From Begonia masoniana (taxonomy: Eukaryota > Streptophyta > Magnoliopsida > Cucurbitales > Begoniaceae), in NCBI GenBank assembly GCA_022432975.1, contig CM039505.1, positions 52,551,749 to 52,615,748 of the forward strand: a stretch of DNA of 64,000 bases, given 5' to 3'. Under the pieces are notes generated by a model. The model ran no database searches. It saw nothing but the letters and a program-made list of their open reading frames with translations, and was not told the origin of the DNA. The position numbers and the translations under genes are program-made. Of this stretch, positions 28,861-62,102 are shown in pieces. Numbering within the stretch: the first letter of the stretch is position 1; each line of letters begins with the position of its first letter.

Positions 28861-30240
28861 CTACCAAGAGAACATAAAATTTTATTGTTTGTAAAATAAA
28901 ATAAACACTGATATAAGAAATTCAATGAATTAAATGGTTATTGTAGAAAACTTCACAGTTTTTTATTTATAGAACATGAGGTATTGTTAAATGTTAATGT
29001 GGAAACCATTATAGCTAACAAGAAATTATCTCAGCTAGAAAATAAGGTTAATGGCACCATTATAAGAAAACAAAATCACAAGGTTATAACTCTAATTTAC
29101 AAGGAAAGATTTTATCTACCATAAAAATAAAAGTAGGATTCTCCCCATTGAAAATCTCTTAGACCAGTCCCCTAACAACTTCATGAAGGCACTCTAAACA
29201 TTTATATAGTATTTAATGATATCTAATTATATAAGTCCTATAAGTTATTGCTTCCATGTACATTATGTATAACGTTCCTCTCCCTCTTTTCTTCCATATT
29301 TTTAAAGAAATGAAAATGAAAATTAAGATGGATTCTCTCGTTTAAAAATCTCATAGACCATTCCCTAAACAACGCTAAACATTTATGTATTATTATTTAA
29401 TAATCTTTTCCCTCCAAATTATTATTCATGTATATCATAAAGTAATATTTTTCTCCCTTGTTTCTTCCATAATTTTTTAAATGAAAATGAAAGTTAAAAT
29501 GGACCCGCCCTGTTGAAAATCTCTTAGACCACTCCCTAAACATTTATATAATAATTAAATATATTTGTCCCCTAAATTATTACTATATCTTAATTTAATA
29601 TTTAGTTTCCAACATTACTACAATATGTAATGATAATTACAATATAACTAAAAATAACAATTATTATAGGCGTAGTAATACTATGTAAAAATAAATATAT
29701 CACTCTTTATTATCTTTCACGTTCTAAGTAATCAAGATTATTCTAGGATACATATATATACACACAAAAGAGGGCATAACAAAGAAGAATAAAAGGAATT
29801 ATTTAAAAATGATAAATAAAAAAGGGGAGGGAAAATGGTAATCAAAATCAGAAGTGTGTGAGCAGCTGTGTATAAGTAGACTGTATGCATCCTTGTGCGC
29901 TGCATAGAAGTCTACTTCAGCCTACATGCATTTTTTCCACTCCCTATTTGTATTTATTTTCTTCAAGCCAGTTGGTAATCTAGACCATTCCCTATTTATA
30001 CTTGTTTTTTCGCTATTCCCTTAGGCCACTGTTTAGGGTTCTCCTTTATGCTCTCTTTGCTCATCACTCCTAACAAATTCTCATCTTACTTTTATAGTTT
30101 CTATAAATTTTGACTCGTAGAAGTAATAATATCATGCTTGAGTAAACTAGGGAGAAATAAACTCAAAAGAGTTGGTCAAGGAGGGAAATGACAATGGAAA
30201 ATAAATCCAAGGGTTTCAATTTATTATGTTTTTTTTTAGG
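28861..30240. other. AT-rich gap 5' of the WD40 pseudogene
   Basis: Apart from the tandem repeats at 29133-29590 I see no exon. Short dispersed copies of TAGACCATTCCCTATTTATA-like sequence occur near 29980. Confidence 0.5.
29133..29590. repeat. Three ~170-195-bp tandem repeats
   Basis: Units start at about 29133, 29330 and 29505, with shared GAAAATCTCTTAGACCA, CCCTAAAC and CTTCCAT segments. The last one is incomplete. Divergence is moderate. Confidence 0.75.
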
Positions 30241-30296
30241 GATTTGGTTTTCGTGTTTTTTTTAGGGTTTATGAGGGTTTAGGTTTTGTTTCCACA

Positions 30297-30640
30297 TCAG
30301 AGACTGTACTCATCCCAAAACCAGATCCACTTCCAAATCCACCACGGGAAATGCTTACGTAACTAAAACTATTTTCATTTCTTACCAAGCCCATTGATGG
30401 TAATGACATTAAACCTCCTTTATTGCTTCTCCCCTTTCAAATCTGCAGAATACATTACAAAATTTTAACATATATAATCCACACTAAATATATCTCACAA
30501 AAGATATGAGAAAAAAATGGCAGAGATGAAAACATATTCCTTTCTTTTGTCAATTTCGTTCTGCATTACAAGCTTGCGCAACTTCTCTTTGTGACTCTCT
30601 ATCTCGTAATACTGCTTCACCTTATCAACAATCACATTTT
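30297..30640 (-). pseudogene. Unit 1 delta-COP (coatomer delta) exon fragments
   Basis: Coatomer delta is a subunit of the COPI vesicle coat. D2 (about 30546-30640) reads VKQYYEIESHKEKLRKLVMQ. D1 (30297-30442) follows TTCTGCAG and reads SNKGGLMSLPSMG, then GGFGSGSGFGMSTVSDV. Both match the linker between the longin-like N-terminus and the mu-homology domain. D1 and D2 are in the correct gene order on this strand, separated by about 100 bp. Confidence 0.8.
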
Positions 30641-30764
30641 TCTTTTAGCCAAGAGAAATGACTTAATCAAAAGCAAAAATCAGCTGAAAAGTTGTCTTGC
30701 AAATCACCTCTTCATCTAGAGAGATTGAATGTTCCAGTACCTTGTGATACTTGATTTACGACTG

Positions 30765-30963
30765 CTAACATTTTCTACACACTCTATCGTGCTATAACAG
30801 CTGTTTTCCTCTTCGTAGTGGATGTGTTTCATGGTTATTTGAAGATCTTTTTCTCTAACCAGCTTGTTAAACGGTCAACAAGTAAAATATGGTTCAGTGT
30901 AAATGTGCAAGCTCTCCCAAAGTAGATCTAGCATGTAAGGGTGAGAGGATAGTAGAGATCTTC
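30765..30963 (-). pseudogene. Unit 1 oxidosqualene cyclase exon fragment
   Basis: Follows acceptor TTCTACAG. Reads EDLYYP, then (after a frameshift) DLLWESLHIYTEP, a TGA where the family has the Trp of TRWPF, and [20 protein letters not shown]. Motifs match beta-amyrin-synthase-type cyclases (triterpene ring formation). Only one exon of the gene is present; active-site DCTAE and QW motifs are absent. Confidence 0.8.
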
Positions 30964-31215
30964 CTGTAGAATGACGTAACCATCTTTCGTAAAAGAGCTA
31001 GTCGCTTGCTATTACAAAGCCAGTATAGATAAGTCAAGTTGCACAGACATGGCGTAATTGCTGCCAGTTAATAAGATGGTAAGACTGAGTGTGTAGCTCC
31101 TCTGTAGTGGTAGGAAATTTATTTAGACCTCCGATTGAAAAAACAAAACAAAATTGTCGTGAATACAGTTCAGAGAAAACCTATCACCCGAAACTAAAGT
31201 TAAAAATACAAATAC

Positions 31216-31281
31216 CTTCCCATCAATATAACTTTGGTGCTCCATAATTGATGCCCTATAAGTTTCAATTCGCATAAGATC
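31216..31281 (-). pseudogene. Unit 1 conserved 66-bp exon of unknown origin ('H')
   Basis: Exactly 22 codons between ATGCAG and GTATTTG, phase 0, reading DLMRIETYRASIMEH then QSYIDGK. The same exon recurs at 33354-33419, 49144-49209 and 62103-62168. I do not recognise the family; it is not part of delta-COP or the cyclase as I know them. Confidence 0.65.
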
Positions 31282-31479
31282 CTGCATTGTTCGCAAAAAA
31301 AAAAAAATGTTACCTTCAAGTGAATAAAAAGAAGAACTAAAATATGTTGTTTTCGACTTTTATTATGCTCATTGAAGTATAAGAAATATAATTTGAATAC
31401 TCTGCTCATAAATTACATAGATATGGTCAGAGAGACTCGTTGAAAGCAACAATCAATATTCACAACACATAATTATATT

Positions 31480-32424
31480 AAAAAAAAACGTAGTTTAGAT
31501 TTTACTTTCTCTAATTTAATATACTACCATGATACATTCTAAAAAAAAACTCAATATAATAACAAAAAATAGATAGAAAATAGATATTACAAGAAGTAGC
31601 ACAATACAAAATTCAAGATCTTTCAATCTACGAAAGCAATCTATTAGAGAACTCCATATTCTAATCCTTATTCTAATAATTTAAAAAAACAAGAAGTATC
31701 CAGTTATGTGAAGAAAAAGAAGAAGAAAGTAAGTATCGAAATTCAACCTTAATCATTTCTTTGAGAATGACAACGTAGGACTATGCAGTTATTGACCAGA
31801 AAACTCAAAGCCAAATTATCCCCATCGCTCAAAAGGAGAGAGCGACTCTCTTCTCTTCCCTTGCACGAGCAAGCTTTTGTGACCAATTATGATTAAGATT
31901 CTCGAATGAGTCGCCGATTTTGAAAATTGCCACTAGAATTACAAATATTGCAATTAGAGAATTTAATGGCTTTCTTGGTTGATGTAAACTATTCTTAATC
32001 TCAGAATGAGTGAGTAGGGTTAGCACAAGTTAATAGACAACGATTTCAGAACATCGGGGATTAGGGTTTGAGTTTTTAGAATACCAGAGGATAAGGATTT
32101 GGAGTTTTGATTTTCTCTTGAACCTTCGAGAAAGATAATTGATTTTCTCTTGAACCTTAAAGAAAATTAGCATTTAGGGTTTTGTATTTTTTTTTACGGC
32201 TTTAGATTTCGTTTTTTTAGGGTTTTGTTTTGGGTTTTTTTTTTTTTTTTGAGTTTTTTGATTTTTGTGTTTTTTTAAGGGTTTCTGTTTTTCATGATTT
32301 TTTTAGGAATTTGGTTTTTGTGTTTTTTTTTTTTTAGGGTTTACGAGAGTTTAGGGTGTATGCATTATGGAGTAAGCATAAGACACAAAAGGTAAAAATC
32401 TTTAGATTTGATATGGTAATTTTC
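31480..32424. repeat. Unit 1/2 junction: one satellite monomer, U block and T-rich spacer
   Basis: One diverged ~400-bp satellite monomer (anchor AGTAGCACAATACAAAATT at about 31592), the U block at 31829-32030, and a T-rich spacer to 32370. Confidence 0.75.
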
Positions 32425-32775
32425 CACATCAGAGGCTGTACTCATCCCAAAACCAGATCCACTTCCAAATCCACCACGGGAAATGCTTACGTAACTAAAA
32501 CTATATTCATTTCTTCCCGAGCCCATTGATGGTAATGACATTAAACCACCTTTATCGCTTCTCCCCTTTCCAATCTGCAGAATACATTGCAAAATTTTAA
32601 CATATATAATCCACACTAAATATATCTCACAAAAGATATGAGAAAAAAATGGCAGAGATGAAAACATATTCCTTTCTTTTGTCAATTTCGTTCTGCATTA
32701 CAAGCTTGCGCAACTTCTCTTTGTGACTCTCTATCTCGTAATACTGCTTCACCTTATCAACAATCACATTTTTCT
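32425..32775 (-). pseudogene. Unit 2 delta-COP exon fragments
   Basis: D1 (32425-32574) has GRSDKGGLMSLPSMGSGRNE and GGFGSGSGFGMSTASDVENY, the least damaged D1 of the array. A single D2 copy lies at about 32671-32775 and reads as in unit 1. Confidence 0.8.
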
Positions 32776-32907
32776 TTTAGCCAAGAGAAATGACTTAATC
32801 AAAAGCAAAAATCAGCTGAAAAGTTGTCTTGCAAATCACCTCTTCATCTAGAGAGATTGAATGTTCCAGTACCTTGTGATACTTGATTTACGACTGCTAA
32901 CATTTTC

Positions 32908-33092
32908 TACACACTCTATCGTGCTATAACAGCTGTTTTCCTCTTAGTGGATGTGTTTCATGGTTATTTGAAGATTTTTTTCTCTAACCAGCTTGTTAAA
33001 CGGTCAACAAGTAAAAAATGGTTCAGTGTAAATGTGCAAGCTATCCCAAAGTAGATCTAGCATGTAAGGGTGAGAGGATAGTAGAGATCTTC
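32908..33092 (-). pseudogene. Unit 2 oxidosqualene cyclase exon fragment
   Basis: Nearly identical to unit 1, sharing the Trp-to-stop change in TRWPF and the frameshift after EDLYYP. It lacks 6 bp near GAGGAAAAC (about 32943). Confidence 0.78.
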
Positions 33093-33353
33093 CTGTAGAA
33101 TGACGTAACCATCTTTCGTAAAAGAGCTAGTCGCTTGCTATTACAAAGCCAGTATAGATAAGTCAAGTTGCACAGACCTTTGCACAGACATGGCGCAATT
33201 GCTGCCAGTTAATAAGATGGTAAGACTGAGTGTGTAGCTCCTCTGTAGTGGTAGGAAATTTATTTAGACCTCCGATTGAAAAAACAAAACAAAACCGTCG
33301 TGAATACAGTTCAGAAACCTATCACCCGAAACTAAAGTTAAAAATACAAGTAC

Positions 33354-33419
33354 CTTCCCATCAATATAACTTTGGTGCTCCATAATTGATGCCCTATAAG
33401 TTTCAATTCGCACAAGATC
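33354..33419 (-). pseudogene. Unit 2 'H' exon
   Basis: Reads DLVRIETYRASIMEH then QSYIDGK, flanked by AATGCAG and GTACTTG. Open, with intact splice signals. Confidence 0.65.
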
Positions 33420-33439
33420 CTGCATTGTTCGCAAAAAAA

Positions 33440-35780
33440 AAAAAAAATGTTACCTTCAAATGTATAAAAAGAAAGAACTAAAATATATTGTTTCCGACTT
33501 TTATTAAGCTCATTGGAGCATAAGAAATAATTTGAAAACTTTGCTCACAAATTACATAGATATGGTCAGAGATACTCGTCGGAAGCAACAATCAATATTT
33601 CAAACACATAATTATCAAAAAAGGAAAAAAAAAACGTAGCTTAGATTTTACTTTCTCTAATTTAATACACAACTATGTTATACTCTAAAAAAAAAAACTC
33701 AATGTAATAACAAAAAATAGATATTAAAAAATATAACACAATACAAAATTACAAGATCTTTCAATCCACGAAAGCAATCTACTAGAGAACTCTGTATTCT
33801 AATCCCTAATCTACTAATTTAAAAAAACAAGAAGTGTGAGGTTATGCGAAGAAGAAAGTAAATATCGAAATTGAACCTTAATCATTTCTTCACGAATGCC
33901 AACGTAGGACTATGCAGTTATTGACCAGAAAACCCAAAGCCAAATTATCCCCATCGCTCAAAAGGAGGGAGCGGCAGTCTTGTCTTCCCTTGCATGAGCG
34001 AGCTTTTGTGACCAATTATGATTAAGATTCTTTGATGAGTCGCCGATGTTGGAAATTGCCAATAGAATTACAAATATTGCAGTTGGAAAACGTAATGGCT
34101 TTCTTGGTTGATGTAAATTGTTCTTAATCTCAGAATGAGTAAGTAGGGTTAGCACAAGTTAATAGACAACAATTTCAGAACATCGGGGATTGGGGTTTGA
34201 GTTTTTAGAATACCATAGGATAAGGATTTGGGGTTTTGATTTACTCTTGAACCCTCGAGAAAGATAATCCATCTTCTCTTGAACCCCAAAGAAAATTAGC
34301 GGAAGAAGAAAGTAAGTAGCGAAATTGAACCTTAATAATTTCCTTGTGAATGCCAACTTAAGACTATGCAGTTGTTGACCAGAAAACCCAAAGCCAAATT
34401 ATCCTTATCGCTCAAAAGGAGAACAATCAATATTTAAAACACAATTATCAAAAAAAGAAAAAAAATGTAGCTTAGATTTTACTCTCTCTAATTTAATAGA
34501 CTACTATGTTACAATCTCAAAAAAAAAAATTCAATGTAATAACAAAAATAAACAGAAAATAGGCATTAAAAGAAGTAGCACAATTCAAAATTACAAGATC
34601 TTTCAATCCACGAAAGCAATTTACTAGAGAACTCTGCATTCTAATCCCTAATCTAATAATTTAGAAAAACAATAAGTATAAGGTAATGCAAACAAAAAGA
34701 AGAAAGTAAGTAGAGAAATTCAACCTTAATCATTTCTTTGTGAATGCCAGCGTAGGACTATACAGTTGTTGACCAAAAATCCCAAAACCAAATTATCCTC
34801 CTCGCTCAAAAGAAGAACAATCAATATTCAAAACACATAATTATCAAAAAAGGGAAAAAACGCAATTTAGATGTTACTTTCTCTAATTTAATGGACTATT
34901 ATGTTACACTCAAAAAAAAAAAAAAAAAAACTCAATGTAATAACCAAAAATGGAGAGAAAATAGACATTAAAAGAAATAGCACAATACAAAATTACAAGA
35001 TCTTCCAATCCACGAAAGCAATCTACTAGAGAACTCCATATTCTAATCTCTATGCTAATAATTTAAAAAAACAAGAAGTGTCAAGTTATGTGAAGAAAAA
35101 GAATAAAAAAATAAGTAGAGAAATTGAACCTTAATCATTTCCTTGTGAATGTCAACGTAGAGCTATGCAGTTGTAGACCAGAAAATCCAAAGTCAAATTA
35201 TCCCCATCGCTCAAAAGGAGGGAGCGACTGTCTTGCCTTCTCCTGCAGAAGCGAGCTTTCATGACCAATTATGATTAAGGTTCTTTGATGAGTCGCCGAT
35301 GTTGGAAACTGCCACTAGAATTACAAATATTGCAGTTGGAGAACATAATGGATTTCTTTGTTGATGTAAATTGTTCACAATTTCAGAATGAATGAGTAGG
35401 GCTGGTACCAGTTAATAGACAACGATTTCGAAACATCGGGAATTAGGAGTTGAGATTTCATAATACAAGAGGATAAGGATTTGAGAGTTTGAGTTTCTTC
35501 TGAACCCTCGAGAAAGATAATTGATTTTCTCCTAAAACCTAAAGAAAATTAGGGGTTTAGGGTTGTGTGTTTTTTTTACGCCTTTGGTTTTTTTTTTTTT
35601 TTTTGTGTTATTTTTAGGTTTAGGCTTTTTTGTGCTTTTTTAATGGTTTCTATTTTTCATGATTTTTTAACTATTCAGTTTTCGTGTTTTTTTTAAGCTT
35701 TACAAGGGTTTAAAGTTTATGCATTGTGAAATAAGCATAAGACACTAAAGGTAGAAACCTTTAGATTTGATAGGGTAATT
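33440..35780. repeat. Unit 2/3 junction: three satellite monomers with two U blocks
   Basis: Satellite anchors at about 33738, 34577 and 34977. Unlike other units the U block occurs twice, at 33958-34155 and 35205-35400, so monomers and U blocks have been shuffled. T-rich spacer at 35400-35720. Confidence 0.8.
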
Positions 35781-36310
35781 TTCCACATCAGAGGCTGTGC
35801 TCATCCCAAAACCAGAACCACTGGAAATGCTCATGTCACTAAAACTACTTTCAATTTTTCCCGAGCCCATTGACAGTAAAGACATAAAACCTCCTTTATT
35901 GCTTCTCCCATTTTGAATCTGCAGAATACATCGCAAAATTTTAACATATGTCATCCACAATAAATATATTTCACAATAGATATGAGAAAAAAATGGCAGA
36001 GATGAAAACATATTGTATTCTTTTGTCAATTTCGTTATGCATTACAAGCTTGTGCAACTTCTTTTTGTGACTCTCCATCTCGCAATACTGTTTAACCTGA
36101 TCAACAGTCACATTTTCCCTTTAGCCAAGAGAAATGACTTCATCAAAAGCAAATATCAATTCAAAAGGTGTTAGATATGAGAAAAAAAATGGCAGAGATG
36201 AAAACATATTCTTTTCTTTTGTCAATTTCGTTCTGCATTACAAGTTTGTGCAACTTCTCTTTGTGACTCGTCATCTCGCAATACTGTTTCACCTGATCAA
36301 CAATCACCTT
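35781..36310 (-). pseudogene. Unit 3 delta-COP exon fragments
   Basis: D1 (35781-35918) reads NKGGFMSLLSMGSGKIESSF and SGSGFGMSTASDVENYPIKS. D2 is present twice (about 36015-36118 and 36208-36310), about 190 bp apart, a local tandem duplication. Confidence 0.8.
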
Positions 36311-36461
36311 TTTCATTTAGCCAAAAGAAATGACTTCTTCAAAAGCAAATATAAGTTTACCAAATATATCAGTTAGCAAATATCAAAAACAAATCACCTC
36401 TTCATCTAGAGAGATTGACTGTTACAATACCTTGTGATACTTGATTTACGATTGCTAACCT

Positions 36462-36648
36462 TTTCTAGACAATCTATCGTGATATAACGGCTATTTTCCT
36501 CTTCGTAGTGGATATGATTCATGGTTACTTGAAGACATTTTTCTTTAACCAGCTTGTTAAATGGCCAACGAGTAAGAAAAGGCTCAGTGTAAATGTACAA
36601 GCTATCCCAAAGTAGATCTTGCATGTAAGGGTGAGGATAGAGGTCTTC
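36462..36648 (-). pseudogene. Unit 3 oxidosqualene cyclase exon fragment
   Basis: Open through [40 protein letters not shown] and [13 protein letters not shown]. The normal IGCVEKV is changed to IDCLEKV. An upstream frameshift separates it from EDLY. Confidence 0.82.
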
Positions 36649-36689
36649 CTCTGGAAAGAGGTAACCATCTTTCGTAAAAGAGTCAGTCG

Positions 36690-38862
36690 TTAGAAATAAA
36701 AAAAGTAGCTTAGATTTTACTTTCTCTAATTTAATAAACTACTACGTTACACTTTAAAAAAAAGACTCAATGTAATAACAAAAAATGAAAAAGAAAATAG
36801 TCATTAAAAGAAGTAGCACAATACAAAAATTACAAGATTTTTCAATCCACGAAAGCAATCTACAAGAGAATTCCGTATTCTAATCTCTAATCTAATAATT
36901 TAAAAAAACAAGAAGAGTCAGCTTATGTGAAGAAAAAGAAGAAGAAAGTAAGTAGAGAAATTGAACTTTAATCATATCCTTGTGAATGCCAACGTAGACC
37001 TATACAGTTGTTGACCAAAACCCCAAAGCCAAATTATCCTCATCGCTCAAAAGGAGAACAATCAATATTCAAGACACATAATTATCAAAAAAGAAAAAAA
37101 AATGTAGTTTAGATTTTACTTTCTCTAATTTAGTAGACTACTATATTACACTCTCAAAAAAAAAAAAAAAACTCAATGTAATAACAAAAAATGGAGAGAA
37201 AATAGACATTAAAAGAAGTAGCACAATACAAAATTACAAGATCTTTCAATTCACGAAAGCAATCTACTAGAGAACTCTGTATTCTAATCTCTAATCTAAT
37301 AATTTAAAAAAACAAGAAGTGTCAAGGTATGCAAAGAAAAAGAAGAAGAAAGTAAGTAGAGAAATTGAACCTTAATAATTTCCTTGTGAATGCCAACGTA
37401 AGACTATTCAGTTGTTGATTAGAAAACCCAAAGTCAAATTATCCTTATTGCTCAAAAGGAGAACAATTAATATTCAAAACACATAATTATCCAAAAATAA
37501 AACATACCATAGATTATGCATTCTCTAATTTAATAGACTACTATATTACACTCTAAAAAAAAAAAAACTCAATGTAATAACAAAAAATGGAAATAAAATT
37601 GTCATTAAAAGAAGTAGCACAATAAAAAATTACAAGATTTTTTAATCCACGAAAGCAATCTACAAGAGAATTCCGTATTCTAATTCCTAATCTAATAATT
37701 TAAAAAAAAAATAAGTGTGAGGTTATGTAAAGATAAAAAAAGAAGAAAGTAAGTAGAGAAATTGAACCTTAATCCTTTCTTTGTAAATGCCAATGTAGGA
37801 CTATACAGTTGTTGACCAAAAAACCCAAAGCCAAATTATCCTCCTCGCTCAAAAGAAGAACAATCAATATTTAAGACACATAATTATCAAAAAAGGAAAA
37901 AAAACGTAGTTTAGATTTTACTTTCTCTAATTTAATAGACTACTATGTTACACTCTAAAAAAAAACTCAATGTAATAAAAAAAATGGACAGAAAATAGAC
38001 ATTAAAAGAAGTAGCACAATACAAAATTACAAGATCTTTCAATCCACGAAAACAATCTACTAGAGAACTCAATATTGTAATCTCTATGCTCACAATTTAA
38101 AAAAACAAGAATTGTCAGGTTATGTGAAGAAAAAGAATAAAAAACAAGTAGAGAAATTGAACCTTAATTATTTCCTTGTGAATGTCAACGTAGGACTACG
38201 CAGTTGTAGACTAGAAAACTCTAAGTCAAATTATCCCCATCGCTCAAAAGGAGGGAGCAACTGTCTTGCCTTACCCTGCAGAAACGAGCATTTGTGACCA
38301 ATTATGATTTAAGGTTCTTTGATGAGTCGCCGATATTGGAATTTGCAACTAGAATTACAAATATTGTAGTTGGAGAACATAATGGATTTCTTTGTTGATG
38401 TAAATTGTTCTCAATCTCATAATGACTGAGTAGGCATAGCACCAGTTAATAGACAACGATTTCGAAACATTGGGGATTAGGGTTAGAAATTTCAGAATAC
38501 CAGTGGATAAGGATTTGAGAGTTTGATTTTCTTCTGAACCCTCGAGAAAGATAATTGAGTTTCTCCTAAACCCTAAAGAAAATTAGGGTTTAGGGTTTGT
38601 GTTTTTTTTTCTGGCTTTAGATTTCGGGTGTTTTTTGGGTTTTGGTTTGTTTTTGTTTTTTTTAGTTTTTATGTTTTTGTGTTATTTTTAGGTTTAGGCT
38701 TTTTTGTGTTTTTTTAAGAGTTTCTATTTTTAATGATTTTTTAGCTATTCAGTTTTCGTGTTTTTTTAACGTTTACGAGGGTTTAGGGTTTAGGGTTTAT
38801 GCATTGTGAAATAAACATAAGACACTAAAAGTAGAAACCTTTAGATTTGATAGGTTAATTTT
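36690..38862. repeat. Unit 3/4 junction: four satellite monomers, U block, T-rich spacer
   Basis: Anchors at about 36813, 37218, 37613 and 38012 (period 395-405 bp). U block 38231-38420. Spacer with three TTTAGGG copies near 38778-38800. Confidence 0.85.
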
Positions 38863-39395
38863 CCACATCAGAGGCTGTGCTCATCCCAAAACCAGAACCA
38901 CTGGAAATACTCATGTCACTAAAACTACTTTCAATTCTTCCCGAGCCCATTGAAAGTAAAGACATGAAACCTCCTTTATCGTTTCTCCCATTTCAAATCT
39001 GCAGAATACATTGCAAAATTTTATCATATATCATCCATACCAAAAATATTTCACAAAAGATATGCGAAAAAAATGATAGAGATGAAAACATATTCCTTTC
39101 TTTTGTCAATTTCATTATGCATTACAAGCTTGTGCAACTTCTCTTTCTAACTCTCCAACTCGCAATACTGTTTCACCTGATCAAAAGTCACATTTTCCAT
39201 TTAGCAAAGAGAAATGACTTCATCAAAAAGCAAATATCAGTTCAAAAGCTATTAGATATGAGAAAAAAATGGCAGAGAGGAAAACATATTCTTTTCTTTT
39301 GTCAATTTCTTCTGCATTACAAGCTTGTGCAACTTCTCTTTGTGACTCGCCATCTCGCAATACTGTTTCACCTGAGCAAAAGTCACATTTTCCAG
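38863..39395 (-). pseudogene. Unit 4 delta-COP exon fragments
   Basis: D1 at 38863-38998, D2 twice at about 39097-39200 and 39290-39395. D1 has a changed EIGNGRNDKGG start and an in-frame deletion of the FGSGG segment, shared with units 3 and 5. Confidence 0.78.
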
Positions 39396-39509
39396 TTAGC
39401 CAAGAGAAATGACTCCTTCAAAAGTAAATATCAAAAACAAATCACCTCTTCATCTCGAGAGATTGACTGTTACAATACCTTGTGATACTTGATTTACGAC
39501 TGCTAATCT

Positions 39510-39694
39510 TTTCTAGACAATTTTGTGATATAACCACTATTTTCCTCTTCGTAGTGGATATGATTCATGGTTACTTGAAGACATTTTTCTCTAACCAACT
39601 TGTTACATGGCCAACGAGTTAGAAAAGGCTCAATGTAAATGTACAAGCTATCCCAAAGTAGATTTTGCATGTAAGGGTGAGGATAGAGGTCTTC
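39510..39694 (-). pseudogene. Unit 4 oxidosqualene cyclase exon fragment
   Basis: Same fragment as unit 3, with a short deletion near the 3' end (CTAGACAATTTTGTGAT in place of CTAGACAATCTATCGTGAT). Confidence 0.78.
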
Positions 39695-39749
39695 CTGTAG
39701 AAGGACGTAACTAACTTTCGTAAAAGAGTCCGTCAGTTGCTAGGAAAAA

Positions 39750-42034
39750 AAAAAGTAGCTTAGATTTTACTATCTCTAATTTAATCAACTACTATGTTAC
39801 ACTTAAAAAAAAACTCAATGTAATAACAAAAAATGGAAAGAAAATAGTCATTAAAAGAAGTAGCACAATACAAAATTACAAGATCTTTCAATTCACAATG
39901 GCAATTTACAAAAGAATTCCGTATTCTAATTCCTAATCTAATAATTTAAAAAAAAAATAAGTGTGAGGTTATGTGAAGATAAAAAAAGAAGAAAGTAAGT
40001 AGAGAAATTGAACCTTAATCATTTCTTTGTAAATGCCAATGTAGAACTATACAGTTGTTGACCAAAAAACCCAAAGCCAAATTATCCTCTTCGCTCAAAA
40101 GAAGAACAATCAATATTTAAGACACATAATTATCAAAAAAGGAAAAAAAACGTAGTTTAGATTTTACTTTCTCTAATTTAATAGACTACTATGTTACACT
40201 CTTAAAAAAAAAACTCAATATAATAAACAAAAATGGATAGAAATTAGACATTAAAAGAAGTAGCACAATACAAAATTACAAGATCTTTCAATCCACGAAA
40301 ACAATCTACTAGAGAACTCAATATTGTAATCTCTATGCTCACAATTTAAAAAAACAAGAATTGTCAGGTTATGTGAAGAAAAAGAATAAAAAACAAGTAG
40401 AGAAATTAAACCTTAATCATTTCCTTGTGAATGCCAACGTAAACCTATACAGTTGTTAACCAAAACCCCAAAGCCAAATTATCCTCATCGGTCAAAAGGA
40501 GAACAATCAATATTCAAAACACATAATTATCAAAACAGGAAAAAAAACGTAGTTTAGAGTTTACTTTCTCTAATTTAATAGACTACTATATGACACTCTA
40601 AAAAAAAAACTCAATGTAATATCAAAAAATGGAGAGAAAATAGACATAAAGAAGTAGCACAATACAAAATTACAAAATTTTTCAATCCACGAAAGCAATC
40701 TACTAGAGAACTCTGTATTCTAATCTCTAATCTAATAATTTAAAAAGAAGAAAGTAAGTAGAGAAATTGAACCTTAAAAATTTTCTTGTGAATGCCAACG
40801 TAAGACTAAGCAGTTGTTGACTAGAAAACCCAAAGCAAAATTATCCTTATCGCTCAAAAGGAGAACAATCAATATTCAAAACACGTGTGAGGTTATGTGA
40901 AAAAAAAAGAAAAAGAAAGTAAGTTGAGAAATTGAACCTTAATCATTTGTTTGTGAATGCCAACGTAGGACTATACAATTGTTGACCAAAAATTATCCAC
41001 CTCGCTCAAAAGAAGAACAATAAATATTTAAAACACATCATTATCAAAAAATGAAAAAAAAAAACGTAGTTTAGATTTTACTTTCTCTAATTTAATAGAC
41101 TACCATGTTAAACTCTCAAAAAAAAAAAAAAAAAAAAACTCAATGTAATAAACAAAAATTGAGAGAAAATAGACATTAAAAGAATTAGCACAATACAAAA
41201 TTACAAGATCTTTCAATCTACGAAAGCAATCTACTAGAGAACTACATATTCTAATCTCTACTCTAATAATTTAAAAAAACAAGAAGTATCAGGATATGTG
41301 AAGAAAAAGAATAAAAAAATAAGTAGAGAAATTGAACCTTAATTATTTCCTTGTCAATATCAACGTAGAACTATGCAGTTGAAGACCAGAAAATCCAAAG
41401 TCAAATTATCCCCATCGCTCAAAAGGATGGAGCGACTATCTTGTCTTCCCCTGCAGAAGCGAGTTTTTGTGACCAATTATGATTAAGGTTCTTTAATGGG
41501 TCGCCGATGTTGGAAATTGCCACTAGAATTACAAATATTGCTGTTGGAGAACATAATGGATTTCTTTGTTGATGTAAATTGTTCTCAATCTCAGAATGAG
41601 TGAGTAGGGCTAGCACCAGTGAATAGACAACGATTTCGAAACATCAGGGATTAGGGTTTGAGATTTCAGAATACTAGGGAATAAGGATTTGAGAGTTTGA
41701 TTTTCTTCTAAACACTCAAGAAAGATAATTGATTTTCTCATAAAACCTAAAGAAAATTAGGATTTAGGATTTAGGGTTTAGGGTTTTGGATTTTTTTTTA
41801 CGACTTTGGATTTCGTGTTTTTTTTTTGGGTTTTGGTTTGTTTTTGTTTTTTGTTTTTCTGTTTTTGTGTTAATTTTAGGTTTAGGCTTTGTTGTTTTTT
41901 TTTTAAGGGTTTCTATTTTTCATCATTTTTTAGCTATTCAATTTTTGTGTTTTTTTTAGGGTTTACGAAGGTTCAGGGTTTATGCAAAGCATAAGACACT
42001 AAAGGTAGAAACCTTTAGATTTGATAGGGTAATT
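39750..42034. repeat. Unit 4/5 junction: four satellite monomers, U block, T-rich spacer
   Basis: Anchors at about 39858, 40258, 40652 and 41183. The last interval (about 531 bp) includes an extra partial monomer. U block 41390-41620. Spacer has TTTAGGG-like repeats near 41758-41795. Confidence 0.85.
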
Positions 42035-42565
42035 TTCCACATTAGAGGCTGTGCTCATCCCAAAACCAGAACCACCGGAAATGCTCATGTCACTAAAACT
42101 TCTTTCAATCCTTCCTGAGCCCATTGACAGTAAAGACATGAAACCTCCTTTATCGATTCTCCCATTTTCAATCTGCAGAATACATTGCAAAATTTTAACA
42201 TATGTCATCCACACCAAATATATTTTACAAAAGATATGAAAAAAAATGGCAGAAATGAAAACATATTCGTTTCTTTTGTCAAGTTCGTTATGCATTACAA
42301 GCTTGTGCAACTTCTCTTTGTGACTCTCCATCTCGCAATACTGTTTCATCTGATCAACAGTCACATTTTTCATTTAGCCAAGAGAAATGACTTCAACAAA
42401 AGCAAATATCAGTTCAAAAGCTATTAGATATGAGAAAAAAATGGTAGAGATGAAAACTTATTCCTTTCTTTTGTCAATTTCGTTCTGCATTACAAGTTTG
42501 TGCAACTTCTCTTTGTGACTCGTCATCTCGCAATACTATTTTACCTAATCAACAGTCACCTTTTC
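42035..42565 (-). pseudogene. Unit 5 delta-COP exon fragments
   Basis: D1 42035-42172 (GGFMSLLSMGSGRIERSFSD). First D2 (about 42268-42372) is open: [20 protein letters not shown] then [14 protein letters not shown]. Second D2 about 42460-42565. Confidence 0.8.
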
Positions 42566-42719
42566 CATTTGGCCATGAGAAATGACTTCTTCAAAAGCAA
42601 ATATCAGTTTACCAAATATATCAGTTCAAAAGCAAATATCAAAAACAAATCACCTCTTCATCTAGAGAGATTGACTGTTACAGTACCTTGTGATACTTGA
42701 TTTACGACTACTAACCTTT

Positions 42720-42904
42720 TATAGACACTCTATCGTGATATAACGGCTATTTTCCTCTTCGTAGTGGATATGATTCATGGTTACTTGAAGACATTTTTCT
42801 TTAACCAGCTTGTTAAATGGCCAACGAATAAGAAAATGTTCAGTGTAAATGTACAAGCTATCCCAAAGTAGATCTTGCATGTAAGGGTGAAGATAAAGGT
42901 CTTC
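42720..42904 (-). pseudogene. Unit 5 oxidosqualene cyclase exon fragment
   Basis: Open from [20 protein letters not shown] through [20 protein letters not shown] to [11 protein letters not shown], so here EDLY and the rest share one frame. TRWPF is changed to IRWPF. Confidence 0.82.
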
Positions 42905-42949
42905 CTGGAGAAGGACGTAACCATCTTTCATAAAAGAGTCAGTCACTAG

Positions 42950-45071
42950 AAAAAAAAAAAGTAGCTTAGATTTTACTTTCTCTAATTTAATAAACTACTA
43001 TGTTACACTTTCAAAAAAAAAACTCAATGTAATAATAAAAAATGGAAAGAAAATAGTCATTAAAAGAAGTAGCACAATATAAAATTACAAGATCTTTCAA
43101 TCTACAAAGGCAATCTACCAAAGAAATCCGTATTCTAATCCCTAATTTAATAATTTAAAAAAAAAAAACAAGAAGTGTCAGGTTATATGAAGAAAAAGAA
43201 GAAATTTAGTAGAGAAATTGAACCTTAATTATTTCCTTGTGAATGCCAACGTAGACCTATACAGTTGTTGACCAAAACCCCAAAGCCAAATTATCCTCAT
43301 CGCTCAAAAGGAGAACAATCAATATTCAAAACACATAATTATCAAAAAAGGAAAAACAAAATGTAGTTTAGATTTTACTTTCTCTAATTTAATAGACCAC
43401 TATATTACACTCTTAAAATATATTACTCTTAAAAAAAGAAAGTCAATGTAATAACAAAAAATGGAGAGAAAATGGTCATTAAAAGAATTAGGATAATACA
43501 AAATTACAAGATCTTTCAATCCACGAAAGCAATCTACTAGAGAACGCTGTATTCTAATCTGTAATTTAATAATTTAAAAAAACAAGAAGTGTCAGGCAAT
43601 GTGAAGAAAAAGAAAAAGAAATTAAATAGAGAAATTGAACTTGAATAATTTTCTTGTGAATGCCAAAGTAAGACTATGCAATTGTTGACCAGAAAACCCA
43701 AAGAAAAATTATCCCTATCGTTCAAAATGAGAACAATCAATATTCAAAACACATAATTATCAAAAAAGGAAAAAAAATGTACCTTAGATTTTACTTTCTA
43801 TAATTTAATAGACTACTATGTTACACACTAAAAAAACAAAAAAAAAAACCTCAATGTAATAACAAAAATGAACAGAAAATAGGCCTTAAAAGAAGTAGTA
43901 CAATACAAAATTACAAGATCTTTTATACCACGAAAGCAATCTACAAGAGAATTCCGTATTTTAATCCATAATCTAATAATTTAAAAAAACAATAAGTGTG
44001 AGGTTATGTGAAGAAAAAGAAAAAGAATGTAAGTAGAGAAATTGAACCTTAATCATTTCTTTGTGAATGCCAACGTAGGACTATACAGTCGTTAACCAAA
44101 AAACCCAAAGCCAAATAATCCTCCTCGGTCAAAAAAAGAACAATTAATATTCAAAACACATAATTATCAAAAAAGAAAAAAAACGTAGTTTAGATTTTGC
44201 TTTCTCTAATTTAATAGACTACTATGTTACCCTCTCAAAAAAAAAAACTCAATGTAATAACCAAAAATGGAGAGAAAATAGACATTAAAAGAAGTAGCAC
44301 AATACAAAATTACAAGATCTTTCAATCTACGAAAGCAATCTACTAGAGAACTCCATATTCTAATATCTAAGCTAATAATTTTAAAAAAAAAAAAAGTGTC
44401 AAGTTATGTGAAGAAAAAGAATAAAAACCCAAGTAGAGAAATTAAACCTTAATCATTTCCTTGTGAATGTCAAAGTAGGACTATGCAGTTGTTGAACAGA
44501 AGCGAGCTTTTGTGACCAATTATGATTAAGGTTCTTTAATGAGTCGCCGATGTTGGAAATTGCCACTAGAATTACAAATATTGCAGTTGGAGAACATAAT
44601 GGATTTCTTTGTTAATAAATTGTTCTCAATCTCAAAATGAGTGAGTAAGGTTAGTACCAGTTAATAGACAACGATTTCGAAACATCGCGGATTAGGCTTT
44701 GAGATTTCAAAATACAAGAAGATAAGGATTTGAGAGTTTGACTTTCTTCTGAACCCTCGAGAAAGATAATTGATTTTCTCCTAAAGCTTAAAGAAAATTA
44801 GAGTTTAGGGTTTTGTGTTTTTTTTTTACGGCTTTAGATTTTTTTTTGTTTATTTTGGGTTTTGGTTTTTTTTCGTTTTTTCTATTTTTGTGTTATTTTT
44901 AGGTTTAGGCTTTTTTGTGTTTTTTTAAAAGTTTCTATTTTTCATGATTTTTTTACGAATTCAATTTTTGGGGATTTTTTTTAGTGTTTACGAGGGTTTA
45001 GGGTTTATCCATTATGAAATAAGTATAAGACACTAAAGGTAGAAATTTTTAGATTTGATAGGGTAATTTTC
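42950..45071. repeat. Unit 5/6 junction: four satellite monomers, U block, T-rich spacer
   Basis: Anchors at about 43068, 43487, 43891 and 44294 (period 403-419 bp). U block (44500-44640) lacks its first part. Confidence 0.85.
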
Positions 45072-45805
45072 CACATGATAGGTTGTGCTCATCCCAAAAT
45101 CAGAACCACTTCCAAATCCATCACTGGAAATGATCATGTCACTAAAACTACTTTCAATTATTCCCGAGCCCATTGACAGTAAAGACATGAAACCTCTTTT
45201 ATCGCTACTCCCATTTTCAATCTGCAGAATACATTGCAAAATTTTATCATATGTCATCCATACCAAAAATATTTAACAAAAGATATGCGAAAAAAATGAC
45301 AGAGATGAAAACATATTCCTTTCTTTTGTCAATTTCGTTATGCATTACAAGCTTGTGCAACTTCTCTTTGTGACTCTCCATCTCGCAATACTGTTTCACC
45401 TGATCAAAAGTCACATTTTCCATTTAGCCAAGAGAAATGACTTCATCAAAAGCAAATATCAGTTCAAAAGCTATTAGATAAGAGAAAAAAATGCTAGAGA
45501 TGAAAACATATTCTTTTCTTTTGTCAATTTCGTTCTGCATTACAAGCTTGTGCAACTTCTCTTTGTGACTCGCCATCTCACAGTACTGTTTCACCTGATT
45601 AACAGTCACATTTTCCATTTAGCCAAGAGAAATGACTTCATCAAATGCACATATCAGTTCAAAAGCTATTAGATATGAGAAAAAAATGGCAGAGATGAAA
45701 ACATATTCTTTTCTTTTGTCAATTTTGTTCTGCATTGCAAGCTTGTGCAACTTCTCTTTGTGACTCGCCATCTCAATACTGTTTCACCTGATCAATAGTC
45801 ACATT
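45072..45805 (-). pseudogene. Unit 6 delta-COP exon fragments (three D2 copies)
   Basis: D1 45072-45221. D2 occurs three times (about 45317, 45512 and 45697). The repeated segment includes the motif [14 protein letters not shown] (about 45425-45470), which in delta-COP directly precedes the D2 peptide [14 protein letters not shown], although a stop now separates them. Confidence 0.82.
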
Positions 45806-45954
45806 TTCCATTTAGCCAAGAGAAATAACTTCTTCAAAAGCAAATATCAATTTACCAAATATATCAGTTCAAAAGGAAATATCAAAAACAAATAACCTCT
45901 TCATCTATAGAGATTGTTACAATACCTTGTGATACTTGATTTACGATTGCTAAC

Positions 45955-46143
45955 CTTTTCTAGACAATCTATCGTGATATAAAGGCTATTTTCCTTTTCG
46001 AAGTGGATATGATTCATGGTTACTTGAAGACATTTTTCTCTAACCAGCTTGTTAAATGGCCAACGAGTAAGAAAAGGCTCAGTGTAAATGTACAAGCTAT
46101 CCCAAAGTAGATCTTGCATGTAAGGGTGAGGATAGAGGTCTTC
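45955..46143 (-). pseudogene. Unit 6 oxidosqualene cyclase exon fragment
   Basis: Open: [40 protein letters not shown] and IDCLEKV. NKLVREK here is the family-like form. Confidence 0.82.
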
Positions 46144-46199
46144 TTGTAGAATGATGTAACCATCTTTCGTAAAAGAGTCAGTCGCTGGGAAAAAAAAGT

Positions 46200-48271
46200 A
46201 GCGTAGATTTTACTTTCTTTAATTTAATAAACTACTATGTTACACTCAAAAAAAAAAACTCAATGTAATAACAAAAAATGAAAAAAAAATAGTTATTAAA
46301 AGAAGTAGCACAATACAAAATTACAAGATCTTTCAATCTACAAAGGCAATCTACCAGAGAACTCCGTATTCTAATCTCTAATTTAATAATTTAAAAAAAC
46401 AAAAAATGTAAGGTTATGTGAAGAAAAAAAAAGAAGAAAATAAGTAGAGAAATTTAACCTTAATCATTTCTTTGTGAATGCCAACGTAGACCTATACAGT
46501 TGTTGACCAAAACCCCAAAGCCAAATTATCCTCATCGCTCAAAAGAAGAACAATTAATATTCAAAACACATAATTATCAAAAAAGAAAAAAAAAACGTAG
46601 TTTAGATTTCACTTTCTCTAATTTAATAGAATACTATATTACACTTTCAAAAAAAAAAAAAACTCAATGTAATAACAAAAAATGGAGAGAAAATAGACAT
46701 TAAAAGAAGTATCACAATACAAAATTACAAGATCTTTCAATCCACGAAAGCAATCTACTAGAGAACTCTGTATTCTAATCTCTAATCTATAAATTAAAAA
46801 AAAAAAAAGTGTCAGGTTATGTGAAGAAAAAGAAACAGAACAAGAAAGTGAGTAGAGAAATTGAACCTTAATAATTTCCTTGTGAATGCCAATGTAGGAC
46901 TATGCAATTGTTGAACAGAAAACACAAAGACAAATTATCTTCATCGCTCAAAAGAAGAACAATCAATATTCAAAACACATAATTATCAAAAAAAAAAAAA
47001 ACGTACCGTAGATTATGCTTTCTCTAATTTAATAGACTACTATATTACACTCTAAAAAAAAAAACTCAATGTAATAAGAAAAAATAGAAATAAAATAGAC
47101 ATTAAAAGAAGTAGCACAATAAAAAATTACAAGATCTTTCAATCCACGAAAGCAATCTATCAGAGAATTCCGTATTCTAATATCTAATCTAACAATTTAA
47201 AAAAAAATAAATGTGAAGTTATGTGACGAAAAAGACGAAGAAAGTAAGTAGAGAAATTGAACCTTAATCATTGTTTTGTGAATGCCAACGTAGAACTATA
47301 CAGTTGTTGACCAAAAAACCCAAAGCCAAATTATCCTCCTCACTCAAAAGAAGAACAATCAATATTCAAAACACATAATTATCAAAAAATGAAAAAAAAA
47401 AACGTAGTCTAGATTTTACTTTTTCTAATTTAATAGACTACTATGTTACACTCTAAAAAAAAAAAAACTCAATGTAATAACAAAAAATGGAGAGAAAATA
47501 GACATTAAAAGAAGTAGCACAATACAAAATTACAAGATCTTTCAATCCACAAAAGCAACCTACTAGAGAACTCTATATTCTAATATCTAAACTAATAATT
47601 TAAAAAAACAAGAAGTGTCAGGTTATGTGAAGAAAAAGAATAAAAAAATAAGTAGAGAAATTGAACCTTAATCATTTTCTTGTAAATGTCAACGTAGGAC
47701 TATGCAGTTGTAGACCAGAAAATCCAAAGTCAAATTATCCTCATCGCTCAAAAGGAGGGAGCGACTGTCTTGCCTTCCCCTGCAGAAGCGAGCTTTTGTG
47801 ACCAATTATGATTAAGGTTCTTTGATGAGTCGCCGATGTTGGAAATTGCCACTAGAATTACAAATATTGCAGTTGGAGAACGTAATGGATTTCTTTGTTG
47901 ATGTAAATTGTTCTCAATTTTAGAATGAGTGAGTAGGGTTAGCACCAGTTAATAGACAACGATTTCGAAACATCGAGGAATAGGGTTTGAGATTTCAAAA
48001 TACAAGGGGATAAGGATTTGAGATTTTGATTTTTTTCAGAACCCTTGAGAAAGATAATTGATTTTCTCCTAAACCCTAAAGAAAATTGGGGTTTAGGGTT
48101 TAGGGTTTTGTGTTTTTTTTACGGCTATGTATTTCTTGTTTTTTTTTCTTTAGGATTTTAGGTTTTGTGTTTTAGTTTTTCGATTTTTTTGTTTTTTTTA
48201 GAGTTCGGCTATTTTTTAGGGATTCGGTTTTCGTGTTTTTTTAGGGTTTATGAGGGTTTAGGGTATGTTTC
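46200..48271. repeat. Unit 6/7 junction: four satellite monomers, U block, T-rich spacer
   Basis: Anchors at about 46304, 46706, 47113 and 47515 (period 402-407 bp). U block 47741-47950. TTTAGGGTTTAGGG near 48090. Confidence 0.85.
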
Positions 48272-48555
48272 TACATCAGAGGCTATGCTCATCCCAAAAC
48301 CATAATCACTTCCAATCGAGACATGAAACCTCCTTTATCGCTTCTCCTCTTTTGAATCTACAAAATACATTGCAAAAATTTAACATATGTCATCCACAAC
48401 AAAATATATCTCACAAAAAATATGAAAAAAAAATGACAGAGATGAGAATATATACCTTGCTTTTGTCAATTTCACTTTGCATTACAAGCTTGTGCAACTT
48501 CTTTTTGTGACTCTCCATCTCGCAATACTACTTCACCTGAGCAACAGTCACATTT
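48272..48555 (-). pseudogene. Unit 7 delta-COP exon fragments
   Basis: D1 (48272-48358) has lost its middle and its CTGCAG acceptor reads TTTGTAG. A single D2 is at about 48452-48555. This is the most diverged unit. Confidence 0.7.
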
Positions 48556-48689
48556 TCCTTTTAGCGAAGAGAAATGATTTCATCAAAAGCAAAAATCAGC
48601 TTAAAAATTGTCTTGCAAAATCCCCTCTTCATCTAGAGAGATGGAATGTTCCAGTACCTTTTGATACTTGAGTTACAACTGCTAATCTT

Positions 48690-48878
48690 TTCTACACAGT
48701 CTATCGTGATATAATCACTATTTTCATCTTCGTAGTGAATATGCTTCATGGTTACTTGAAGAGATTTTTCTCTAATCAGCTTGTTAAACGGCCAACAAGT
48801 AAGAAAATGCTCGATGTAAATGTACAAGTTATCCCAAAGTAGATCTTGCATGTAAGGGTGGGAATAGTAGAGATCTTC
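48690..48878 (-). pseudogene. Unit 7 oxidosqualene cyclase exon fragment
   Basis: Reads [40 protein letters not shown] and [16 protein letters not shown] is closer to genuine cyclases than the central units' [10 protein letters not shown]. Confidence 0.8.
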
Positions 48879-49143
48879 CTGTAGAATGACATACCATCTT
48901 TTGTAAAAGAGTCAGTCACTTGTTATTACAAAACTAGAGATAGATAGGTCAAGTTGCACAAACCTATGCACAGAGATGACACATTTGCTTGCAGTTAATA
49001 AGATGGCAAGATTGAATGTGTAGCTCCTCCCGTAGTTGTAGGAAATTTATTTAGACCTCATATTCAAAAAACCCAGCAAAACCATCGTGAATACAATTCA
49101 GACAAAACCTATCATCCGAAATTAAAGTTAAAAATAAAAATAC

Positions 49144-49209
49144 CTTCCCATCAATATAACTTTGGTGCTCCATAATTGATGCCCTATAAGTTTCAATTCG
49201 CTTGATCGA
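49144..49209 (-). pseudogene. Unit 7 'H' exon
   Basis: RIETYRASIMEH then QSYIDGK followed by GTATTTT. The 5' codons and acceptor differ from units 1 and 2, so this copy's upstream edge is a breakpoint. Confidence 0.6.
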
Positions 49210-49219
49210 TTGAGTTAGG

Positions 49220-49417
49220 ACCACCATACAAAGGCTTTGTGAAAGTTTACTAGCTTCAACATTCCCCATCAGTAGTTAGATTTTTTTTATTTTAAAATTG
49301 ACCGAGCATAAGTTTGGAGTACCATACAAAGGCTTTCATGAAAGTTTACTAGCTTCGACATTCTCAATTAGTAGTTAGATTTTTTATTTTAGAATTGACA
49401 GAGCATAAGTTTGGTTT
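49220..49417. repeat. Two ~98-bp tandem repeats at array edge
   Basis: Copies 49220-49318 and 49319-49417 share CCATACAAAGGCTTT, GAAAGTTTACTAGCTTC and GAGCATAAGTTTGG. Confidence 0.85.
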
Positions 49418-51589: not shown

Positions 51590-51810
51590 CAAAATTTTGA
51601 CGATGACAACGAATGAATCACGAATCAATGTAGTAAAGAATAGTTCCAAATAATAAAATTATAAATATAATAAAATTATAAATAATAAATTAAATTATAA
51701 ATAATAAATAATAAATTAATTTATAAATTATAAATTACAAATTATATTATTTGGAACTATGCTTCACTCCGATATTTTATAACTCATCCATTGTCATCGC
51801 CAAATTTTGG
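51590..51810. mobile_element. MITE-like hairpin element
   Basis: Inverted arms of about 66 bp: 51590-51655 and 51745-51810, sharing ATAGTTCCAAATAATA and GATGACAA segments, around an AT-only centre. Arms are imperfect. A TSD is not clear. Confidence 0.6.
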
Positions 51811-53144: not shown

Positions 53145-53178
<34 letters not shown>

Positions 53179-62092: not shown

Positions 62093-62102
62093 AATAAAAT
62101 GT

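Follow-up and report, generated by a model that had tools for sequence, protein, structure and literature searches.

A tandem array of intron-bearing fragments of three genes in Begonia masoniana, probably a decayed subtelomeric macrosatellite of genic origin

The window analysed here, a stretch of 64,000 nucleotides of the Begonia masoniana genome, carries a mosaic array of seven direct units arranged head-to-tail (positions 30,240-49,201); this array and all other window features given below lie on the minus strand. Comparison of the window with itself gave matches of up to 3.6 kb at 87-89% identity, far above chance, and the array contains seven oxidosqualene-cyclase (OSC) pieces, seven copies of delta-COP exon b, 12 of delta-COP exon a, 20 monomers of about 395 bp (partial ones included) and seven CCCTAAA-rich blocks. 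The tandem array is therefore real, and these self-matches and counts confirmed the sequence-only reading of seven direct OSC/delta-COP units in the same orientation with monomers of about 400 bp between them. Within the unit, a CCCTAAA-rich block is followed by exon 1, intron 1 and exon 2 of the PRMT6-like gene, then by an exon-intron-exon piece of OSC and one of delta-COP, all in a single orientation, and 14,440 of the 18,915 bp of the array (76%) were tiled by three candidate parent genes. The same reading had assumed two source genes plus satellite DNA, which did not hold, since three parent genes were found and the monomer corresponds to exon 1 and intron 1 of the third.

Units 1 (30,240-32,420) and 2 (32,421-34,300) are direct copies of about 2.1 kb, each consisting of a CCCTAAA-rich block, a PRMT6-like 5' piece with one monomer, exon 2, an OSC piece and a delta-COP piece. 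Units 3-6 (34,302-48,264), which form the higher-order part, have lost exon 2 of the PRMT6-like gene as well as the first OSC exon, and their 395-bp monomers are multiplied; four unit-long stretches of these middle units were 90.4-92.5% alike. Unit 7 (48,260-49,201) is truncated at nucleotide 14 of PRMT6-like exon 2, where it is joined to an upstream block (49,202-54,671) common to the copies on scaffolds C4, C6, C12 and C13. A higher-order unit of 3.1 kb, as had been proposed, thus describes the middle units (3.05-3.2 kb, about four monomers) but neither units 1 and 2 nor the truncated unit 7. The CCCTAAA-rich blocks are located at 32,167-32,386, 35,545-35,745, 38,583-38,825, 41,757-41,999, 44,800-45,033 and 48,085-48,262, with a truncated one at 30,209-30,290; the six blocks tested contain 10-28 telomere heptamers each versus shuffle means of 0.25-0.48.

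The OSC peptide matched residues 312-375 of PDB 8j5z_A (E 2.1e-23), and a protein-database search with the OSC open reading frame returned 14 short, unnamed OSC-like proteins. The candidate parent is gene L052 on scaffold C9, at 49.636 Mb of a 49.79-Mb scaffold and hence 155 kb from its end. The captured segment comprises 379 bp including an 86-bp intron, and the copies are 85-92% identical to the C9 gene, intron included; two further OSC paralogues on C9 gave blastn matches around the exon only, at 70-72%. Breakpoints fell at parent positions 0-378 in seven of the nine copies compared, and at 1-378 and 0-370 in the remaining two. In unit 1 (30,750-31,113, 86% to L052) the piece covers part of an exon, the 86-bp intron, the next exon and the start of the following intron, and OSC-gene pieces are also found in unit 2 (32,882-33,254, 88%) and unit 7 (48,664-49,041, 90% over 379 bp). 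The piece of unit 3 begins within the intron (36,440-36,690, 90%), and the OSC exon is likewise present in units 4 (39,488-39,742, 85%), 5 (42,696-42,947, 87%) and 6 (45,935-46,186, 90%).

The delta-COP peptide, a composite of several copies, matched residues 107-200 of 5a1u_H (E 1.6e-11). With these structural matches, and with matching genes on C9 and C7, the identities first assigned to both the cyclase and the delta-COP pieces stood. The candidate delta-COP parent is gene L060 on C7, about 5 Mb from the scaffold end, with 75-80% identity versus 70-74% for C11; neither candidate lies in the terminal 2 Mb of its scaffold, the distances to the ends being 3-5 Mb. The pieces, which retain the delta-COP intron (101 bp in the parent) between exon a (VKQYC) and exon b (GGFMSL), lie at 30,287-30,752 in unit 1 (78% to L060), 32,359-32,884 in unit 2 (79%) and 48,319-48,672 in unit 7 (79%). 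Exon a is doubled in units 3 (35,714-36,442), 4 (38,798-39,490) and 5 (41,987-42,698) and tripled in unit 6 (45,006-45,852), and its copies outnumber those of exon b because units 3-6 hold two to three of them as a 195-bp tandem.

The monomer of about 395 bp, whose presence had been noted but whose origin had been taken for satellite DNA, tracks exon 1 and a shortened intron 1 of a PRMT6-like gene. The candidate parent on C8, 0.9 Mb from the scaffold end, is collinear with the array from exon 1 to exon 2, intron 1 included, with about 71% identity over long stretches and 85% in exon 2. Given this likeness, its seventh place among 17 matches to the protein query and the possibility that it is itself decayed, the C8 gene may be a cousin instead of the direct parent. 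Other methyltransferase loci (L061, L062 and L066) had no DNA match. PDB searches with the short PRMT exon (one query mixed two frames), a protein-database search with its 54-residue open reading frame and a Pfam scan of three short pieces yielded no match. The piece of unit 1 (31,190-31,988), collinear with the C8 gene at about 71%, comprises exon 1, the shortened intron 1 (one monomer), exon 2 (31,220-31,286) and the start of intron 2. Exon 2 is also kept in unit 2 (33,358-33,424, within a piece at 33,328-34,120) and, partly, in unit 7 (49,148-49,201). Monomers with an exon-1 part occupy 34,303-35,373, 36,694-38,407, 39,746-41,581, 42,952-44,622 and 46,188-47,910, the second, fourth and fifth of these stretches with four monomers each. 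In other copies in the genome the monomer sequence is interrupted by about 290 bp, as in an unshortened intron. A lone exon 1/exon 2 piece lacking the monomer (62,026-62,401) is probably an older unit type.

The array is no local oddity but one among many copies: pieces occur close to the ends of eight scaffolds, tandem or fragmentary, and certain blocks of several units have counterparts on other scaffolds. A genome search with delta-COP gave 106 matches, four of which were taken as genes, and 101 of the other 102 lay less than 2 Mb from a scaffold end; the OSC search gave 76, with eight taken as genuine genes and all 68 others within the same distance. The chance of finding eight of eight clusters near ends is roughly 1e-9, a figure obtained with a cut-off chosen after the data were seen, with the C9 stray excluded and for clusters that are not independent. 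On C9 an isolated unit was located 3.47 Mb inside the scaffold, and the orientation is reversed on C6 and in distal C4 (30 of 102 delta-COP matches). No telomere repeats were detected at the nine scaffold ends examined, so that "subtelomeric" here rests on scaffold coordinates and the ends are not proven chromosome ends; one end was poly-T. Among the 100 listed of 141 perfect telomere 42-mers, 99 lay inside C13 and one inside C1.

In a tree of 28 units, separate groupings joined C4 with C7, C4 with C13 and C4 with C6, and the C4 and C6 flanks are 98.6-98.8% alike. The homogenisation that had been suggested is visible in the four middle units of the window, which form one clade, but it is only part of the picture: units 1 and 2 pair with C6, and other units group across scaffolds. 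Units are shared over eight scaffolds, assumed to be non-homologous chromosomes, and the groupings point to exchange between them. Since OSC is absent upstream of 49 of the 102 delta-COP matches, it probably joined after the PRMT6-like and delta-COP pieces. Intron divergence is lower for OSC (0.07-0.13) than for delta-COP (0.14-0.29), and exons give no such separation (0.06-0.11 and 0.08-0.16, respectively).

We consider it likely, from sequence comparison, that the array is a decayed subtelomeric macrosatellite that arose from genes, has no coding function and was shaped by patchwork joining of DNA, by unequal crossing-over and by exchanges among chromosome ends. The retained introns (86 bp in OSC, that of delta-COP and PRMT6-like intron 1) indicate that genomic DNA was captured; they also led us to reject a retroposed-gene origin. 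Exon capture, as previously suggested, is accordingly right in that gene pieces were captured, but what was taken up is DNA with introns, broken inside both exons and introns. Amplification of a chimeric gene fragment in tandem is borne out by the array units and the matching genes in the same genome. Break-repair or template switching at a chromosome end would have joined telomere-like DNA to fragments of two genes, one from the 5' part of the PRMT6-like gene and one from delta-COP, and unequal crossing-over would have produced arrays. One lineage would have gained the OSC segment, and each gene piece would have entered once, as the OSC breakpoints common to the copies suggest. Ectopic exchange between chromosome ends would account for the spread, and a deletion of about 290 bp in the intron would have given the 395-bp monomer, multiplied on C2, C4, C12 and C13 and entering the higher-order array of the window. 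The present role of the array would be that of passive, recombining chromosome-end DNA with decayed gene pieces. Several observations speak against this reading: the scaffold ends without telomere repeats, the isolated unit inside C9, the reversed orientation on C6 and in distal C4, the distance of the delta-COP candidates from scaffold ends, the exon divergence that does not set OSC apart from delta-COP, the low OSC pN/pS given below, the doubtful parentage of the C8 gene, and the roughly 24% of the array left without an assigned parent.

Helitrons typically carry intron-bearing fragments of several genes in one orientation, and capture by a Helitron, Pack-MULE or other transposon followed by tandem growth would explain this same feature of the array as well as the 5.5-kb upstream block shared by several copies. 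We nevertheless regard such an origin as improbable, as the array is tandem, lacked transposon termini in the tests run and is nearly confined to scaffold ends (169 of 170 non-gene matches within 2 Mb). A CTRR plus hairpin end, perfect stems only, occurred once in 28 kb, in the upstream block, versus a shuffled mean of 1.1; no pair flanking the array was present among the 25 longest of 653 inverted-repeat pairs; and a recurrent border, at nucleotide 14 of PRMT6-like exon 2, falls inside the mosaic.

A functional chimeric gene, or a source of small RNAs regulating OSC, delta-COP or PRMT6 genes, would be in line with the OSC frame, open in many copies, with the OSC pN/pS of 0.49, below controls (0.69-0.97), and with the presence in the array of 5' sequence from genes and of some splice sites. 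It appears very unlikely, however, as a TAA stands at the identical place of exon a in 11 of 12 delta-COP copies, the twelfth having other stops, and the delta-COP splice donor is gone in 11 of 12, which argues against normal chimeric splicing; delta-COP pN/pS (0.65-0.74) is near the controls, and the selection test on the gene pieces indicated no clear constraint. Long repeats are prone to misassembly, and telomere repeats do occur in the interior of scaffold C13, at 25.3 Mb, but an assembly artefact is scarcely credible: the middle units differ by 8-10%, which makes reads placeable (units 1 and 2 share 92% identity), the window contains no N, and identical junctions recur on several scaffolds.

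The probable macrosatellite shares with khipu of common bean, as presented in passages of PMC3797529 and PMC6102362, tandem blocks at many ends (scaffold ends in our case), kinship across ends taken here as non-homologous, local duplication and interspersed genes. Khipu units, however, measure 528 bp, whereas ours span 1.75-3.2 kb and combine pieces of three genes for which there are candidate parents; those passages mention no descent from genes, and neither main text contains the term "gene fragment". D4Z4/DUX4 and other human macrosatellites (PMC3616921 and others) have kilobase-sized tandem units with gene sequence near a chromosome end. Units above 1 kb with gene sequence are present in our array too, but the intact, expressible gene per unit of the D4Z4 type is absent: D4Z4 carries an expressible retrogene, whereas the array holds only decayed, intron-bearing fragments of three genes. 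In titles and abstract openings of the open-licence papers listed we recognised no precedent for a gene-fragment satellite, which is not to claim its absence from print.

More tentatively, chromosome ends might act as workshops that make satellites from neighbouring genes: a break healed with telomere-like DNA would have fused the PRMT6-like and delta-COP pieces, end exchange would have multiplied them, OSC would have been added from another end, and the intron would have been pared to the 395-bp monomer. The sources of satellites are often lost and their origin is then unreadable; here candidate parents remain, and the birth can be traced stepwise. Because one genome preserves candidate genes, breakpoints, intermediate units (with or without OSC, with long or short intron) and a higher-order array side by side, it allows direct tests of models for how satellites arise and how chromosome ends exchange DNA. 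Array pieces may inflate counts of OSC or delta-COP genes near chromosome ends, an annotation as "satellite" may conceal gene introns, and an origin from genes may likewise lie hidden behind other plant satellites.

Self-comparison and a tandem-repeat scan of the window delimited a direct array between about 30,240 and 49,201, whose minus strand carries seven oxidosqualene cyclase (OSC) exons, seven copies of delta-COP exon b and 12 of delta-COP exon a, which forms a 195-bp tandem in units 3-6. The array also holds 20 monomers of ~395 bp, counting partial ones, and seven CCCTAAA-rich blocks, one of them truncated. The OSC exon matched a solved OSC at residues 312-375 (E 2.1e-23), and a composite query of the delta-COP pieces matched coatomer delta (E 1.6e-11). 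Thus, the repeats and structure matches uphold the tandem array of OSC and delta-COP exons described in the sequence-only reading, with peptides that match both families assigned there, and candidate parent genes were found for OSC on scaffold C9 and for delta-COP on C7. Two as the total of contributing genes was too few, since an exon of a third, PRMT6-like gene is present.

This extra exon, with splice sites, lies between monomer and OSC exon in units 1, 2 (DLVRIETYRASIMEHQSYIDGK) and in part 7, and we take it to be PRMT6-like, a putative subfamily label. Searching the genome with part of a PRMT6 protein gave 17 matches, of which C8:50,899,776 ranked seventh (74% over 27 residues), behind loci on C6 and C1 with at most 65% over longer stretches. 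The C8 gene, a predicted arginine methyltransferase, reads AYFHSYAHVGIHEEMIK, an intron and then DRVRTETYRAAIMQHRSYISGK, and its joined 49-aa peptide matched solved arginine methyltransferases 3, 1, 6 and others (54 sequences, best E 4e-15). Among the methyltransferase loci compared, it alone matched the array at the DNA level, no DNA match being obtained with loci L061, L062 and L066. The exon-1 block, the 395-bp monomer and the exon of the array are collinear with exon 1, intron 1 and exon 2 of the C8 gene, with ~71% identity across long stretches and 85% within exon 2. The monomer, previously described as satellite DNA, is thus a gene piece with a shortened intron. In other genome copies the monomer is interrupted near position 184 by ~290 bp, as expected for the unshortened intron.

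Eight OSC exon matches were taken as genuine genes by position and domain search, and the one at C9:49.636 Mb, which lies 155 kb from the end of its scaffold, was by far the closest of them to the array (85-92% identity). The captured stretch of 379 bp comprises an exon end, an 86-bp intron, a 192-bp exon and ~22 bp of the following intron; of nine copies compared, seven span parent positions 0-378 and the remaining two 1-378 and 0-370, and the middle units of the window (3-6) lack the first OSC exon and part of the intron. Two other C9 paralogues aligned by blastn only around the exon (70-72%). An OSC gene cluster, with the likely parent among its members, lies near the scaffold end at C9:49.61-49.74 Mb. 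An intact delta-COP exon was found at four loci, 98-100% identical to the query piece, and the array is closer to the C7 pair at 5.0 Mb (75-80%) than to the C11 pair (70-74%). Of the 18,915 bp of the array, 14,440 are covered by the three parents together. Because introns are retained, reverse transcription of spliced mRNA is excluded as the source.

No OSC was found upstream of 49 of the 102 delta-COP matches, a count that overlooked weak OSC pieces may inflate. A single OSC-less stretch was read (C7 locus L038, 6.2-8 kb); there, delta-COP sequence comes after PRMT6-like exon 2 and reaches parent position 1277-1291, further upstream than 1441 in OSC-bearing units. Introns diverged from the parents by 0.07-0.13 in seven OSC copies and by 0.14-0.29 in ten delta-COP copies; exon divergence, less telling, was 0.06-0.11 and 0.08-0.16, respectively. 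OSC-less units, longer delta-COP reach and lower OSC intron divergence together suggest that OSC joined later, its piece being added to a unit that would already have held the PRMT6-like and delta-COP pieces. A lone PRMT6-like piece without monomer at 62,026-62,401 resembles the older type; it sits inside a possible decayed gene of DnaJ-type cysteine-rich class on the minus strand (60600-63200), suggested by a motif spotted by eye.

In delta-COP exon a, 11 of the 12 copies have a TAA at one common place, the twelfth having other stops, and the splice donor is lost in 11 of 12. Ratios of pN/pS among copies were 0.49 (OSC), 0.65 (exon a) and 0.74 (exon b), compared to 0.69-0.97 in the monomer and exon-1 blocks used as controls and 0.53-1.09 when the same exons were read in shifted frames. 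Both delta-COP exons look neutral, the OSC ratio is low but based on few changes, and we take the array to be non-coding.

Successive units are joined through the CCCTAAA-rich block, with the delta-COP end of one unit on one side of it and the PRMT6-like start of the following unit on the other. Six blocks tested held 10-28 telomere heptamers each, against means of 0.25-0.48 and never more than 8 in the 500 composition-preserving shuffles made per block. Block strand polarity agreed with the nearest scaffold end in seven of nine array groups (72 of 102 delta-COP matches) and was inverted on C6 and the distal part of C4. None of nine scaffold ends read carried telomere repeats, two being withheld and one poly-T, and among 100 listed of 141 perfect telomere 42-mers, 99 lie inside C13 and one inside C1; therefore, we infer a subtelomeric location of the family from scaffold coordinates only. 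A long perfect telomere-repeat run at C13:25.3168-25.3175 Mb is either an interstitial telomere array or a scaffold misjoin.

Scaffolds C1-C15 sum to 790 of 795 Mb. With genes left out, all 68 OSC match rows and 101 of 102 delta-COP rows lie <2 Mb from a scaffold end, some copies giving two rows; every first-look candidate was scored in these searches (80/80 and 114/114), while three genome DNA searches, with 40/138, 40/100 and 40/75 candidates scored, give lower bounds. The exception, C9:3.467-3.469 Mb, is an isolated piece that combines delta-COP with PRMT6-like sequence whose intron is unshortened, and it may be a relic. The family occupies C2, C4, C5, C6, C7, C8, C12 and C13, C4 holding 62 of the 102 delta-COP rows, and the plain tandem unit in other arrays is ~1.75-2.1 kb. 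In a tree of 28 units, with weak support for 10 of its 25 inner branches, C4:52.971 Mb paired with C7:1.031 Mb, C4:52.973 with C7:1.033 and C4:52.687 with C13:45.848 (91/88); units 1 and 2 of the window grouped with C6, and four of its middle units formed one clade. The window site is duplicated at C6 1.858-1.866 Mb (98.6% and 98.8% identity in the flanks and 95.7% in the units, ignoring gaps), where only ~2.3 units are left, ending at an ATGGT microhomology. Divergence among the middle units (8-10%) exceeds that between the two sites, so that units were probably lost from C6, or else C4 got them from elsewhere.

That a transposon, a Helitron or another element with ends, produced the array seems improbable: of 653 inverted-repeat pairs, the 25 longest include none that flanks it, no excess of Helitron-like 3' ends was found, and all but one of the 170 non-gene match rows are close to scaffold ends. 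Among the matches listed, the 5.5-kb upstream block (49,202-54,671) is common to copies on C4, C6, C12 and C13. It holds pieces of another tandem repeat, spaced ~0.5 kb on C9 and C11, which occurs near the ends of C2, C5, C8, C9, C11 and C12 among the matches listed, with further occurrences at C9:46.65 Mb and C14:43.6 Mb. The block resembles duplicated end segments patched together more than it does an element with ends. A ~300-bp direct repeat (52662-52975 and 54340-54640, 88% alike) resembles, by eye, a 5' UTR exon with splice donor. Elsewhere in the window, a 1-kb direct duplicate (16552-17556 and 18369-19377, 97.5% alike) contains 80-bp tandem units and has a distant relative near the array on C2 (locus L036, 5798-6045, 72%), and Copia-like (448-2742) and Gypsy-like (4339-6916) retrotransposon remains were judged by eye from the ORF list.

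The array family behaves as does khipu of common bean, which shows tandem blocks at many chromosome ends, non-homologous end exchange and local expansion (PMC3797529, PMC6102362). It also resembles human D4Z4, where gene sequence forms a macrosatellite unit near a chromosome end. Tandem blocks and exchange between ends are already known from khipu, and a gene-bearing macrosatellite unit from D4Z4; what is new in Begonia masoniana is the mosaic of three genes and a monomer made from an intron.
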